Source of the DNA: an uncultured Geobacteraceae bacterium | GTDB taxonomy: Bacteria > Desulfobacterota > Desulfuromonadia > Geobacterales > Pseudopelobacteraceae | Assembly (NCBI GenBank): GCA_903876875.1 | Contig: CAIRBT010000056.1 | Location: 1 to 64,000 of the forward strand | Length of the DNA stretch: 64,000 nt | Direction of reading: 5' to 3' | Part shown: piece by piece, positions 2,574 to 9,095 of the stretch | Position numbering within the stretch: position 1 is the first letter of the stretch | Layout of the letters: each line of letters begins with the position of its first letter | Translations under genes and position numbers: made by a program | The notes under the pieces: model-generated | Database searches by the model: none | Seen by the model: only the letters and a program-made list of their open reading frames with translations | Told to the model about the DNA's origin: nothing

Positions 2574-3686
2574 CTACCTCCCCATACATTGTGCTGCCGC
2601 CAACCGGGAACAGCTTCTCCGGCAACCGGTACCCTGTTGTTCATCACTCACAAGGGGCAGAATAAACCTGAAATCCGACCCACAGTTATCCCCGGAGGTT
2701 CTACTTTCAACGGTCAACTCTCCCCCCAACTCGGCAACCAGACTATGAACAATGGAAAGACCAAGCCCCGTACCCTTTCCCGGCTCTTTGGTGGTAAAAA
2801 ACGGGTCAAAAATACGTTCCTGCATCTCGGGAGTCATGCCATGTCCCCGATCCGAAACCATCACACAGAGGCCGCTTGCAGCACCGTCATACCCACACTG
2901 TGACGCGGTGGCCCGTTCAACGTACACGCGGATTTCACCACTCTGAGCCATGGCATCTACAGCATTGATACACAGGTTCATCACAATTTGCTGTACCTGC
3001 CCCGGCTTCGCCATGACCGAAGCCGGGGCAATTCCGGTTTGGAGTGAAATCGTGAATTCTTTCTCCGTCACGTTAACGAGGTCAAGAGCCTCCCGTATCT
3101 CGCTGACGGCATCCACAACCACCATCCCACAGTTCTCTCCCTGCCTGGCAAAGGCCAGCATCCGTGCCACCAAATCCCGTGCCCGCATGCTGGCGGTCAG
3201 CAGGTGCTTGATATTTTTCTTTCCCGATGACCCCTCCGGCAGCTCATCGTCAATCAGCTCCGCATAACCGATGATGCTGCCGAGGATATTATTAAAATCG
3301 TGGGAAATGCCGGCCGCCAAGGTACCCACCGCCTCCAGTTTGTTTGCCTGTTGGAGACGCCGGTCAACAATATCCTGATATCGCTGTTCGACCTGTTCCC
3401 GAAAGGACATACCGTAGGACATGGATATTTCTATCAGTGGCAGAGTCAAGAGACCGGCGACTTCACCCAGGGTAAGTTCGGGATGTTCTTCGGACAAGCG
3501 CAAAACGGCGGCATGGTGAATCGATACCAACTCATCGGGGGGCATCATGAGCTGGCTCACCGAATTGCGGCCAAGTTCAAAGGCGTCTGCCAAATGAATT
3601 TCTCTGTTATCAGGATCATCGGCAAAGACAACCTGTTGCAGAATTTTGCAGTATTCCTTCTCGGTAGTTTCTTTCAGAGCGTCCAT
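2574..3686 (-). CDS. Sensor histidine kinase with RsbU-N-like N-terminal domain
   Basis: HisKA H-box [19 protein letters not shown], HATPase_c motifs ([30 protein letters not shown]); N-terminus [25 protein letters not shown]...[15 protein letters not shown] resembles the RsbT-binding RsbU N-domain. Confidence 0.9.
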
Positions 3687-3699
3687 GAATTATATCCCG

Positions 3700-4284
3700 T
3701 TAACCATGACGATACAGCAGTACCGATGCATCGTCACGTCCATGTGCCAAAGTATCGAGTAACTCCCGAGCCTGATCCTCTGCAGAAACAGCCGTATCGG
3801 AGCAGCGTTCATAGGGAATTGACTGTTCGGGCAGACCATCAGAGTACAAAAGCAGAATGTCTCCCGACACCAGCATGACGCTCTGCACATCAAGATTCCG
3901 GTATCCGGCACCCACAATACCTCGGGTACAGGCAAACCAGGCGTGGCCATGACGCTGCACCAACTGAGCTCGCATATTCCCCACACACGCCACGGTTCCC
4001 CTGCCGCTGGCCCGTTCGATGACCACCACGACCTGAGCCGCCCCACGGGTAGTATGCAATACCCCATCACACCGGGCTAATATCTCTTCGCAGCTCAGAT
4101 GGAGAGCGGCTCCCACCGCGTCAACGGCAGCCTGTGATGCCCGGGCGGCCTCCGGGCCATGCCCCAGACCATCGGCCAAGGTCAGCACAATTCGTTCATC
4201 AGTAACCCAGTAGGCACCACTGTCACCACAGACAACCTGCCCCGCCAGGGGGCGGGTTGCCAGACCGATAGTCTCTATAACCAC
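3700..4284 (-). CDS. rsbX: RsbX-like PP2C/SpoIIE-type serine phosphatase
   Basis: DSGAYWVTDERIVLTLADGLGHGPEAARAS...DILLLYSDGLPEQ...HGRDDASVLLYR; position in stressosome operon. Confidence 0.85.
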   Translation of the reverse strand: MVIETIGLATRPLAGQVVCGDSGAYWVTDERIVLTLADGLGHGPEAARASQAAVDAVGAALHLSCEEILARCDGVLHTTRGAAQVVVVIERASGRGTVACVGNMRAQLVQRHGHAWFACTRGIVGAGYRNLDVQSVMLVSGDILLLYSDGLPEQSIPYERCSDTAVSAEDQARELLDTLAHGRDDASVLLYRHG

Positions 4285-4661
4285 TTGCGCGCCTTAATTT
4301 CCGTCCGCACGCCCGGATAGCTGGCGATATCCAGTTCATCCATCAGCCGCTTCACTCCGGGAAGGCCGCACCCCAGACCATTGGCCGTGCTGAACCCCTC
4401 TTCCAGTGCCTTGTCAATATCGGCAATTCCGGGGCCGTTATCCACCGTCATGAGTTCCATCCCCCGGGCACCGTGGCGCTGCAAGGTAATCATTCCCCCG
4501 CCGGCGTGAATCCAGAGGTTGGCGGCAAGTTCCGAGGCGGCGGTGGCGATGTAATAGGCCGATGTGGTCGAAAAGCCGAGCCGTCCGGCCATAGCTCGTG
4601 ATTGACGTACCGCTTCGGAAATATCAGACTCGTTACGAATGGAAAGATGAAGTACACTCAT
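4275..4661 (-). CDS. RsbT-like anti-sigma-factor-type serine kinase (second copy)
   Basis: HATPase motifs SELAANLWIHAGGG, DNGPGIADIDKALEEGFSTANGLGCGLPGVKRLMDE. Confidence 0.87.
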   Translation of the reverse strand: MSVLHLSIRNESDISEAVRQSRAMAGRLGFSTTSAYYIATAASELAANLWIHAGGGMITLQRHGARGMELMTVDNGPGIADIDKALEEGFSTANGLGCGLPGVKRLMDELDIASYPGVRTEIKARKWL

Positions 4662-5068
4662 TGTCGTTTTCTCACCATGGAAATAGTCACACGGGTAAAT
4701 CCCGGAGATGACTCTATCTCGAATTTATCCACCAGACGACGGGTACCGGGAAGCCCCGCCCCCATGCCGCCGCCGGTGCTGTAGCCATCCTTCATGGCGG
4801 CGGTAATGTCCGGAATGCCGGGGCCATGGTCTTCCATAGTAATATGAAGACGCATTTCTACCGGGGTGGAATCCTCATGGATCGTGCATGATCCTTCCGT
4901 GGCATATTTCAGCACATTGCGCGCCAGCTCGGAGACCGCCGTCGCCAGACGGGTCTGATCCGCCAGACCAAAGCCGATACGAGCCGCCTCCTGTCGCGCC
5001 ACGGAGCGAGCCCGCACAATATCCGTTGCCGTTGTAACAGCCAGATGCTGTAAAATACTACCATTCAT
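4658..5068 (-). CDS. rsbT: RsbT-like serine kinase (first copy)
   Basis: SELARNVLKYA, EDHGPGIPDITAAMKDGYSTGGGMGAGLPGTRRLVD; ATG at 5068 preferred over ORF start 5107 because of the overlap with rsbS. Confidence 0.88.
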   Translation of the reverse strand: MNGSILQHLAVTTATDIVRARSVARQEAARIGFGLADQTRLATAVSELARNVLKYATEGSCTIHEDSTPVEMRLHITMEDHGPGIPDITAAMKDGYSTGGGMGAGLPGTRRLVDKFEIESSPGFTRVTISMVRKRQ

Positions 5069-5453
5069 AGGTATCCCGGTTCCCCCCCCGATCACCTCTG
5101 GCTGCAATACTCACTTCAAGCTTTTTCAGTGCCTGCTCCAGGTTAAACACGCAATCCACATTAATCAGCTCCCGTCCCATCTCCACCAATGCCAGGGCTA
5201 CAAAGGGCTGGACACCACTAATGACCACCTCGGCACCGAGGAGGCGAGCCATGCTGGCGGTATCGTTGATGACGCGGGCCATGTAGGAGTCAACCACATC
5301 GAGGGAGGTGATATCAATGGCCACACCCAATGCTTCGGTTTCACTGATTCTGTTGATTAGATCTTCCTGAAATTGCAGTGCCGCAGCATCGGTAAGATCA
5401 ACCTGTATAGAGACCAGCAGGACTTTACCCAGACGAATAATGGGGACTTTCAT
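5058..5453 (-). CDS. rsbS: RsbS-like STAS-domain stressosome protein
   Basis: Single STAS domain; VAIDITSLDVVDSYMARVINDTASMARLLGAEVVISGVQP retains the phospho-Ser context. Confidence 0.88.
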   Translation of the reverse strand: MKVPIIRLGKVLLVSIQVDLTDAAALQFQEDLINRISETEALGVAIDITSLDVVDSYMARVINDTASMARLLGAEVVISGVQPFVALALVEMGRELINVDCVFNLEQALKKLEVSIAARGDRGGNRDTYEW

Positions 5454-6671
5454 TTATGCCGCTCCTTCATTACGTTCGATGCGGCACCCGACACGCCGCA
5501 GGGCTTCCACAACTCCGGCACGCAGGGTTCCGCAGCAGGTTGACTGTTCAAAACGGATACCCAGTTCCGTCAGTGTGGTAGCCGCCTCCGGACTGATGCC
5601 GGTGATAACGACATGGGTTCCCAGCAATTGGGTTGCGTCAATAGCATTCATGATATGCCGGGCAACGGTCGTATCAAAGGTGGGAACGCCGGTCACGTCA
5701 ATGACGGCCACCGGAGATTCATGGGTGACGATTGCCTGCAACAGACGATCGGTGAATTGCCGGGCGCGACTGGTATCAATCAGCCCAACCAGTGGCAGCA
5801 GCAGCACATTACCGGTCAATTGAATCACCGGGGTTGACAGTTCAAGAATTGACGCACTCTGCTGACCGATTAACCTGTCCCGGGCATCCAGACTGGTGGC
5901 CATGGCAGCCATGGCTCGCAGCAGCTCGCCGACTTCATCCTGGGTAGTGACGTCGATGGCTACGTCAAAATCCCCCCCGGCAATGCGATGTGCCGTGGCC
6001 ACGGCATGGGCAACGGGGCGGGTGATGGCCCGTGCCGCACCGAAGGCGAGCAAGAGACTGGTCACCACAATGGCACCAATGAGGAGATAATTTGCCACGT
6101 AGGAATAGGTAAATCGTGATTCTGCGAGAATTATCTGCTCCGCCGCTTCCCGCTTGTTGATCGCCGCCAGAGCATCGATGAGTTCCCCGGCACGATCACA
6201 GTCACTCTTCCCTTCGGTTCGGTAAACCTGAAATGCTTCCGTTTTCTTACCGTTTTTTGAAAGCAGGATAATCTTCTTATGGATGTCGAAACAGCGGTTG
6301 GCCACGGCGGTCAGTTCAGCGTACTTCTGTTTTTCCTCCGGCGTATTCATGAGCCTGGCCAGCCCGTTATGGTGTTCCCAGAATACCTGAACATGCTGAT
6401 TAATATCCTTTTCACCTTTTGCCATCTCCGCACCGTTGGTTGACAGGATATGCTCAAACCAGTGGCGGGTAATTTCCCCCAACTGTTCGTCAAGGTCCAG
6501 TAACCCGGAAATACTCGGCAGATTATCGTCGGCAATCATGTCAGCACTTCGAAAGACTTTTTTCATCTGATAATTGGAAAAAATCCCCATGAAGACGGAG
6601 AGCGTTATGATTATTGCAAACGTCAGCAGCAGTTTATTACGAATGGAAAGGTTGCCAAACCAACTCATCAT
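5454..6671 (-). CDS. Membrane-anchored RsbR-like protein: MCP-type four-helix sensor - HAMP - STAS
   Basis: N-terminal NLSIRNKLLLTFAIIITLSVFMGI TM, second TM YLLIGAIVVTSLLLAFGAARAITRPV leading into HAMP, then RsbR-type STAS (DVTGVPTFDTTVARHIMNAIDATQLLGTHVVITGISPE). Confidence 0.85.
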   Translation of the reverse strand: MMSWFGNLSIRNKLLLTFAIIITLSVFMGIFSNYQMKKVFRSADMIADDNLPSISGLLDLDEQLGEITRHWFEHILSTNGAEMAKGEKDINQHVQVFWEHHNGLARLMNTPEEKQKYAELTAVANRCFDIHKKIILLSKNGKKTEAFQVYRTEGKSDCDRAGELIDALAAINKREAAEQIILAESRFTYSYVANYLLIGAIVVTSLLLAFGAARAITRPVAHAVATAHRIAGGDFDVAIDVTTQDEVGELLRAMAAMATSLDARDRLIGQQSASILELSTPVIQLTGNVLLLPLVGLIDTSRARQFTDRLLQAIVTHESPVAVIDVTGVPTFDTTVARHIMNAIDATQLLGTHVVITGISPEAATTLTELGIRFEQSTCCGTLRAGVVEALRRVGCRIERNEGAA

Positions 6672-6718: not shown

Positions 6719-7594
6719 TCAGTTGGCACCAGCAATCGACTCAATCCGCCGACCAACCAGTTTCAACGCCTCGGCAACACCGGCACGCAGAGAAACACGG
6801 CTTATAACATTGGCAAAACTGATGCCAAGCTTGGTCAGTGTCTGGGCACCCTCCGGACTGATACCGGTCATCACCACCCGTGAACCGAGCAGTTGAGCCG
6901 CGTCCACCGCCTTCATGATATGGCGTGCCACCCCCGTATCAAAAACCGGCACCCCGGTCACATCGATAATGGTGACAATCCCCTCGTGGCGGGTAATGGC
7001 CTCCAGCATCCGCTCCGTAAACTGTCGGGCACGAATAGTGTCGATTACCCCGACCAGCGGCAGTAACAGCACATTATTCCAGAGCACGATCACCGGTGTG
7101 GAAAGTTCCATGAGCGACTGGCTCTGCTGGGCAATAACCTTCTCCCGTGTGGTGGCATAGGCATCGAAGGAAAGTATCGTCAGTTGATCCATGAGACCGT
7201 GCAACAGTTCGAGGAACTCCACGAACTGTTCCTGGGAATCAGGAAAGGCACAAACCAACTGGTGGGAAATAGCCTTCTTAAGGGCAACCAGATAGAGGGC
7301 AGTGTCAACCGGTTTAATACCACGGGTGTCATGGTCCGAACTCAAGTCATAGACCATTTTCCCCAGGGGACTCTCTTTGGTGACGGTAACAAGCCCCTCC
7401 CGGCAGCTGGCAAAATAGGCAGAAAAAGCGGCCAGTTTCAGATCTGCATGCCGATGAAGCTCATCCATACTGAGTACACCCGGATATTTATGCCCCACTA
7501 AGTCCATAACCGTACGTTTCCACTCGTCAATAATTGCCGCCCGGCTCTGCTCCAATAAGGCTGACAGCTCTGCGATATTAGTTTTTGCTGACAC
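6719..7594 (-). CDS. rsbR: RsbR-like protein (RsbRD-type N-terminus + STAS)
   Basis: N-terminal helical RsbRD_N-like region (LLEQSRAAIIDEWKRTV...), C-terminal STAS DVTGVPVFDTGVARHIMKAVDAAQLLGSRVVMTGISPEGAQ. Confidence 0.87.
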   Translation of the reverse strand: MSAKTNIAELSALLEQSRAAIIDEWKRTVMDLVGHKYPGVLSMDELHRHADLKLAAFSAYFASCREGLVTVTKESPLGKMVYDLSSDHDTRGIKPVDTALYLVALKKAISHQLVCAFPDSQEQFVEFLELLHGLMDQLTILSFDAYATTREKVIAQQSQSLMELSTPVIVLWNNVLLLPLVGVIDTIRARQFTERMLEAITRHEGIVTIIDVTGVPVFDTGVARHIMKAVDAAQLLGSRVVMTGISPEGAQTLTKLGISFANVISRVSLRAGVAEALKLVGRRIESIAGAN

Positions 7595-7648: not shown

Positions 7649-7683
7649 AAAAAAAGCCCTTCCGGGCGTACGTACAGAGGGCT
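7649..7683 (-). terminator. Candidate intrinsic terminator of riboswitch expression platform
   Basis: Minus strand AGCCCT-(17 nt)-AGGGCT followed by TTTTTT; a tighter GCCC-GGAA-GGGC + T7 is also possible. Confidence 0.7.
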
Positions 7684-7693
7684 CAAACCGCAG

Positions 7694-7779
7694 CCTCTTT
7701 AAGGCAACCCGACTATCCACCCGGTGGACTCGTGGCTTTGCGTCACTGGGTCACCCCAGTTTTGCTCTTAACAGAGAGG
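7694..7779 (-). promoter_or_regulatory. GEMM-I-class cyclic dinucleotide riboswitch aptamer
   Basis: Minus strand CCTCTCTGTTAAGAGCAAAACTGGGGTGACCCAGTGACGCAAAGCCACGAGTCCACCGGGTGGATAGTCGGGTTGCCTTAAAGAGG: GACGCAAAGCC core, P2 CTGGG-GTGA-CCCAG with GNRA loop, GATAGTCGGGTTGCC, P1 TTAAG/CTTAA + CCTCT/AGAGG. Confidence 0.85.
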
Positions 7780-7820
7780 AATCTATGTTTATTGAATCAG
7801 TTGTATACAGTATACGACAT

Positions 7821-9095
7821 TCAATCGGCTTTGTCTGTAGTAAAAACATACCTTTCTCCAGATAGATACAGTTCCTGTGTCACTCCCTGATCCAGCACCC
7901 GCCCCACAATAGTTCCTTCGTCACCGCTACAATGCCCCACCACCTGAAAATCGGCCCGTTTTCCCCGTTCCAGCGTACCACACCGATCAGCAATACCCAA
8001 CGCCTCCGCCCCCCCCCTCGTCACCATGGCAAACAGAAGTGCATCCGACAACTCCCCACCATACACCTGGCGGGCAAAGCGCAGTTCATCCCACAGGGAA
8101 AGTGAGTTGTTACTGGCCAAAGAATCGGTTCCCAATGCCAGGGGCAGAGAATACTTTTTAAACAGCTCCACCGGAGCACGCCCCACATCGAGAATATCGT
8201 TACTGCGGGGACAGAGCACCACATGACTCCCCCGTGATGCAAGCAGCCGCACATCAGACTCGGTGACCTGTACGCAATGAATCGCCAGAGTTGACGGGGT
8301 CAACAGACCGTGACGATCCAGCAGTTCAGCGGCACTGCAGCCGACCCCCTTCCCCCGGTACCGTTCCCAGCCGACGAAGGGATAGAAGAGTTCCGCCAAT
8401 TCTCCGCTGCCATCACGGAGCAGTTCCACTTCGGCTCCTGATTCGGAGAGATGGATGGCAAGGGGGAGCCGATGGAGAGCGGCACGTTCCCGAATGGTCG
8501 GCAGGTGCCCCGCGGCAAGGGTATAGGGGGAGTGGGGTGACAGGCCGGAGAGGAGGGCTTCACGGCCACTCCCCTGGAGTGCCGCCCCCTCGGCTGCGGC
8601 AAGCTTACCGGCAAAGAACGTTTCCTCCTGCCCCAGCAGCTCCTGATAGAGCCGCCCCCCCAGGGGGGTGTGGTGATAGAGCGGGGTATGGAGCGGGTTG
8701 GTGACGATTTCGCCGATGGCGGTGGTGCCCGCCTCCAGACAGAGGCGAATCCCCTCCCGCACCGAAGGGGGGTAATCGGCGGCGGTCAGGCCACGGGATA
8801 TTTTAACCAGCTGAATAATCCAGTCGGAAAAGCGTCGGGGGTGGTAGTCAACAGCGGTACGGCTCCGCCAGGCCGGAAAGTGCGTCAGCTCAAGATGGGT
8901 ATGGGCATTGACAAACCCGGGGATCAACACGCACCCTGGATACTCGCAGACCTCGGCTGAGCTGTGGCGGCGTAAAGCCGCCAGGGTTCCGGTCTCCTTA
9001 ATGACACCATCACGAACGAGCAATGCCCCGCCGGCAAGGGGCGGGGCATTGGGATTAAGTAACCAGGAAGCAGCGTAGATGATATCTTCTGACAT
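7821..9095 (-). CDS. Amidohydrolase family protein (SsnA/MtaD-like)
   Basis: PGFVNAHTHLELTHF, AIHLSESGAEVELL, AIHCVQVTESDVRLLASRGSHVVLCPRSN, ALGTDSLASNNSLSLWDEL. Confidence 0.88.
   Translation of the reverse strand: MSEDIIYAASWLLNPNAPPLAGGALLVRDGVIKETGTLAALRRHSSAEVCEYPGCVLIPGFVNAHTHLELTHFPAWRSRTAVDYHPRRFSDWIIQLVKISRGLTAADYPPSVREGIRLCLEAGTTAIGEIVTNPLHTPLYHHTPLGGRLYQELLGQEETFFAGKLAAAEGAALQGSGREALLSGLSPHSPYTLAAGHLPTIRERAALHRLPLAIHLSESGAEVELLRDGSGELAELFYPFVGWERYRGKGVGCSAAELLDRHGLLTPSTLAIHCVQVTESDVRLLASRGSHVVLCPRSNDILDVGRAPVELFKKYSLPLALGTDSLASNNSLSLWDELRFARQVYGGELSDALLFAMVTRGGAEALGIADRCGTLERGKRADFQVVGHCSGDEGTIVGRVLDQGVTQELYLSGERYVFTTDKAD

Follow-up and report, generated by a model that had tools for sequence, protein, structure and literature searches.

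A leader on the minus strand of the window, the 64,000-nucleotide stretch of DNA analyzed here, belongs by sequence to the GEMM-I riboswitch family, carries an adenine in its binding pocket at the position equivalent to G20 of the Vc2 aptamer (A20), and precedes a stressosome operon. We infer a transcriptional riboswitch that would operate in vivo as an OFF switch, with ligand-induced shutdown of the operon and c-di-GMP as the most likely ligand, a reading to which we give slightly better than even confidence. The aptamer is most likely mainly c-di-GMP-sensing or dual-specific: c-di-GMP is the likelier ligand because only one of the base changes of cyclic AMP-GMP (cGAMP) sensors is present, and the others are absent.

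The aptamer runs from 7776 to 7700 on the minus strand, within a span (7649–7779) that extends from the 5′ strand of P1 through the terminator U-run. As the initial annotation had proposed, it is a GEMM-I (c-di-GMP-I) aptamer: cmscan matches it to RF01051 over the full model (positions 1–87) with 63.5 bits against a cut-off of 35 bits and E = 4.4e-10, and no other Rfam family exceeds the gathering threshold in the whole window. A chance match is ruled out by this E-value together with conservation in the sister species. The P2 loop is GUGA, the GNRA cap that had been described for it. Pocket bases A47 (7739) and C92 (7704, conserved) are intact in the covariance-model alignment, which places the c-di-GMP-type partner strand, equivalent to G45-C46-A47 with the intercalating A47, at 7739–7741. 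The lower P2 strand at 7764–7765, equivalent to G21-C22, is of the c-di-GMP type, where canonical GEMM-Ib relatives have C-U. G20, a consensus pocket base of RF01051 that does not strictly define the family, is absent; as predicted, the alignment gives an A instead (7766), directly 5′ of GCAAA at model position 11, where the consensus is G. Counting Vc2 residues, we take the column preceding GCAAA to be that of Vc2 G20. In the Rfam variant c-di-GMP-I-UAU, whose name we read as encoding positions 20, 47, and 92, the consensus is U in both the position-20 and the C92 columns. The column assignment agrees with this variant consensus and with the equivalence of Vc2 G20 and G11 of Cd1 (PMC9262584), which rules out an alignment slip as the origin of A20.

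Upstream of the leader, a pattern scan found one σ70-like promoter (CAGACA, 17 nt, TATACT; 7809–7837, minus strand), with 0.5 expected by chance. Downstream, the Pfam domains bear out the stressosome operon of the initial annotation, which is assigned by gene content: RsbR and RsbS STAS proteins and an RsbT-type kinase are all present (RsbRD_N, STAS, HATPase_c). Reading along the minus strand, the operon opens with an rsbR-like gene with a GTG start (6719–7594; RsbRD_N, PF14361, and STAS, PF01740), followed by a second rsbR-like gene with a 4HB_MCP sensor, HAMP, and STAS domains (5454–6671), an rsbS-like STAS gene (5058–5453), an rsbT-like ATPase/kinase gene (4658–5107; HATPase_c), a second RsbT/RsbW-type ATPase gene (4275–4661; HATPase_c_2), an rsbX-like PP2C/SpoIIE phosphatase gene (3700–4284), a histidine kinase gene (2574–3686; HisKA and HATPase_c), and a receiver-only response regulator gene (2202–2570; Response_reg). 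Elsewhere in the same genome (L116:6712–8667, contig C100), a second RsbR-like gene precedes a histidine kinase gene resembling that of the window, and the searched stretch of this related operon contained no riboswitch.

The closest RsbR among 58 genomes, 87% identical, is encoded by the sister genome G013. In its operon (locus L099), the promoter matches that of the window in hexamers, spacing, and location, and the P1 strand is identical; A20 and C92 are both present in the GEMM-I aptamer, and the leader could likewise form a terminator. The two aptamers are identical at 66 of 77 bases, and P2 differs by one compensatory double change, from A-U to C-G. The two species have thus retained the promoter, P1, the pocket, and the capacity for a terminator though the flanks diverge, while the exact terminator pairing differs. 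No riboswitch was found upstream of the RsbR relatives identified in other organisms. At the level of sequence, the link between riboswitch and stressosome is real in two species.

The initial annotation took A20 for the established cGAMP signature of Geobacter and proposed a cGAMP switch. Taken alone, A20 does not carry that weight, since the characterized aptamer also has a distinctive base pair: in the solved 3′,3′-cGAMP structure, J1/2 ends at A14, P2 opens with C15-G40, and the pocket is completed by A41 and C75 (PMC6274999). The counterpart of position 20 in that structure is A14, and that of pair 21-46 is C15-G40. In the window this pair is G-C, the c-di-GMP type found in Vc2; the C-G of the cGAMP aptamer is absent. 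Because this c-di-GMP-type pair lies beside A20, the window aptamer resembles the Vc2 G20A mutant. The canonical cGAMP-type arrangement, ACTAAACC...GACGGAAAG, is present in 47 of 58 relatives, and neither the window genome (G000) nor G013 contains such a site. We take these sites to be the GEMM-Ib class on the basis of their match to C15-G40 and to the Gs1761 sequence. Position 20 has been described as influencing selectivity without acting as a hard filter: a protonated adenine allows cGAMP riboswitches to bind c-di-GMP, selectivity responds to point mutations in lower P2, G11A and G11C have no large effect in Cd1, and A20 does not abolish c-di-GMP binding (PMC9262584). In the Gmet_0970 background, A20 confers selectivity for cGAMP and A20G is reported to turn it to c-di-GMP (PMC6456294). 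Set against one another, these results indicate that A20 matters but that its effect depends on the background, and the background in the window is of the c-di-GMP type.

The use of A20 as a specificity mark is also at odds with the range of bases found there, since the sites of the two genomes include all four. The eight GEMM-I sites of the window genome comprise five with A20 (one of them, L008, weak at 35.6 bits), two with G20, and one with C20. Among the 17 sites read in G013, six have A20, five C20, five G20, and one U20. A pattern search for C20 sites, which required a T before GACG, gives a lower bound only. Exact-core sites with A20 make up 11 of 26 RF01051 matches in G000 and G013 versus 5 of 382 in 35 other genomes of the genus (Fisher p = 2.5e-11, for genomes that are not independent, with totals that include canonical GEMM-Ib sites and an exact pattern that undercounts). 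The combination of A20 with a c-di-GMP-type core is therefore a feature of the G000/G013 lineage, with C20 and U20 alongside. Its enrichment and its retention at orthologous sites could reflect selection for another ligand.

GEMM-I sites L007, L100, L101, L102, L106, and L114 have C or U at position 20 in an otherwise ordinary c-di-GMP-type core. L003, L007, L100, and L101 are very similar copies with terminators, mostly with no convincing gene close downstream, and are perhaps a dispersed element. In both G000 and G013 (L004, L112), an A20 riboswitch precedes a gene that we take, by eye from its sequence, to be IHF-alpha-like. A weak match near a contig end (L115:1963–2037, contig C35 of G000; 35.6 bits) has A20 and no recognizable C92, and is possibly degenerate.

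The repertoire of cyclic dinucleotide synthases bears on which ligand could be available. At the Pfam level, the window genome has 14 GGDEF domains, and 13 keep the canonical Asp of GH..GD and are of the c-di-GMP type. The search for a Hypr GGDEF suggested in the initial annotation does yield a candidate, a membrane GGDEF protein (L022:946–2037, contig C144) with Thr at the Hypr site (NDRYGHFAGT ... GGDEF); none of the 14 domains has Ser there. Ser or Thr at this selectivity site is counted as Hypr (PMC9140294), and naturally occurring enzymes with either residue are reported to have only GGDE[F/Y] motifs (PMC6456294); L022 has both the Thr, at the position of PleD D344, and GGDEF. Orthologues of L022 occur in 27 of 58 relatives and so are not specific to G000 and G013. 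Thr is present in all 24 in which the motif was read, and Met replaces Arg at the cross-dimer site wherever that stretch was read; the L022 type is a candidate second type of Hypr enzyme. These orthologues (L069–L072, L206–L228) form a conserved family of membrane GGDEF proteins in genomes with and without GacA.

Orthologues of GacA itself, a Ser-type response regulator-GGDEF protein, are present in 52 of 58 genomes, with Ser and GGDEY in all 30 read. G000 and G013 have no GacA match at E ≤ 1e-70 and are the only two genomes within the genus that lack it. We rejected concealment in an assembly gap, since GacA is missing independently in G013, which is 99% complete, and a CD-NTase as the cGAMP source, since neither genome has a match to SMODS, the type of family searched. 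In G. sulfurreducens, deletion of gacA and a second Ser-type gene removes >90% of cGAMP reporter activity (PMC8835794). That both sister genomes lack GacA as well as canonical GEMM-Ib sites, in a genus where all other genomes searched have GacA, suggests that the cGAMP pathway has been lost. From this survey of GGDEF proteins and GacA, a supply of cGAMP in the window organism appears possible, and a supply of c-di-GMP is expected. A GAF-GGDEF protein in another genome (L085:1453–2532, G010) has Ser at the Hypr position and is distinct from GacA.

We therefore regard a cGAMP riboswitch in the window as rather unlikely. The part of that proposal that stands is A20, conserved in both genomes and reported to govern selectivity in Gmet_0970, together with a Hypr candidate whose Thr and GGDEF agree with reported enzymes. 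Weighing against it are the c-di-GMP-type lower P2, the lack of GacA and canonical GEMM-Ib sites, the breadth of distribution of the Thr GGDEF, the C20, G20, and U20 sites found alongside A20 sites, and a predicted polarity opposite to that of the known Geobacter cGAMP switches. With three accompanying features (lower P2, platform, GacA) absent, the reading is weak. A less probable variant is that, in a lineage without GacA or canonical GEMM-Ib sites, changes at position 20 (to A, C, or U) adapted GEMM-I riboswitches on a c-di-GMP scaffold to a different ligand, either cGAMP made by a Thr-type GGDEF or some other cyclic dinucleotide; these switches would have OFF polarity, and the one on the stressosome operon would belong to them. 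More doubtful still is drift, whereby constraint on position 20 relaxed after GacA was lost and left a weak c-di-GMP sensor or a decaying element of little regulatory effect. The occurrence of A, C, G, and U at this position would fit such drift, but the elements kept between the two species amid diverging flanks, and the compensatory change in P2, argue against it.

The switching platform points to the direction of control in the favored reading, that of a c-di-GMP OFF switch. The leader contains four strands on the minus strand: P (CCUCU, 7775–7779), the 5′ strand of P1, identical in G013; A (AGAGG, 7694–7698), which can pair with P to form P1 or with T to form an antiterminator; T (AGCCCUCU, 7676–7683), which can pair with A or with H; and H (AGGGCU plus a U-run, 7649–7660), the 3′ arm of a putative intrinsic terminator. 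Folded in isolation, the A-T and T-H helices are predicted at -8.2 and -12.5 kcal/mol in the window and at -7.1 and -10.0 kcal/mol in G013. The antiterminator helix is short, with five pairs plus two across a bulge. Minimum-energy folds of the whole window leader do not show P1, and the terminator escaped a generic scan of the minus strand, presumably because its loop exceeds the length allowed there. The three-strand P/A/T/H platform recurs at 16 of 24 GEMM-I sites of G000 and G013, versus 1.25% in shuffled sequence (mononucleotide shuffling of the downstream part only).

In the Cd1 OFF switch, T-H pairing terminates and A-T pairing antiterminates, whereas the pilM ON switch terminates through the aptamer's own 3′ strand (PMC9262584). 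For the leader in the window, the prediction is a separate T-H terminator with an A-T alternative, and not one that draws on the 3′ strand of the aptamer. From this topology, which is that of Cd1 and unlike pilM, we predict a three-strand platform of the OFF type and ligand-induced termination, unlike the known Geobacter ON switches. Transcription of the leader would begin at the conserved promoter, and the aptamer would be the first to fold. When bound to ligand, it would keep P1 (CCUCU/AGAGG) closed, leaving the CCC-rich T strand free to pair with H; the resulting intrinsic terminator would turn the rsbR-rsbS-rsbT operon OFF. When ligand is absent, AGAGG would pair with T as antiterminator, and the operon would be transcribed. 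The ligand would most likely be c-di-GMP, which the A20 pocket should tolerate, while probably also accepting cyclic AMP-GMP, as does Vc2 G20A. An ON switch in which ligand prevents the terminator is improbable: the cGAMP riboswitches known from Geobacter act as ON switches, and their genes fall upon gacA deletion (PMC6456294; PMC9262584), but in pilM the aptamer's own 3′ strand and the C92 equivalent are taken up into the terminator, while the window has its separate downstream T-H hairpin.

If functional, this riboswitch would let a second messenger govern how much of the stress sensor itself is expressed, whichever cyclic dinucleotide is read. The stressosome target looks new to the literature searched, in which GEMM riboswitches and RsbR were not found together in any paper; a combination of riboswitch, stressosome, and cyclic di-GMP returned one paper, on Listeria virulence signals. 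The new part looks to be the stress genes apparently controlled, the type of sensor itself being common in bacteria. A20 alone can mislead cGAMP calls, and lower P2, platform type, and the presence of GacA are to be checked together.

Among known systems, the window aptamer shares with Vc2 (RF01051) its full architecture, the lower P2 G-C/C-G pairs, A47, C92, and the GNRA loop on P2, and differs in having A where Vc2 has G at position 20. The Vc2 G20A mutant binds both c-di-GMP and cyclic AMP-GMP. Like that mutant (PDB 3MUM, 4YB1; PMC10671752), the window aptamer has A20 on a c-di-GMP-type pocket, although the mutant was engineered and the window sequence is natural. With the Geobacter GEMM-Ib 3′,3′-cGAMP riboswitches (Gs1761, Gm0970, pilM), it shares A at position 20, A47, and C92; those riboswitches differ in their canonical lower P2 C-G with an adjoining U, where the window has G-C, in an ON-type terminator that uses the aptamer 3′ strand, and in their cognate synthase GacA, which was not found in the window genome. 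Cd1 of Clostridioides difficile, an OFF switch, has the same three-strand P/A/T/H platform and separate T-H terminator, but carries G at the position-20 equivalent and targets flagellar genes. With its rsbR/rsbS/rsbT-type genes, the operon resembles the RsbR-RsbS-RsbT stressosome modules known from Moorella and Gram-negative bacteria; in the window, a phosphatase gene and two-component genes come after them. A diguanylate cyclase is the reported target of the Moorella stressosome (PMC4976288); in the window the arrow would be reversed, with a cyclic dinucleotide riboswitch lying ahead of the stressosome operon.
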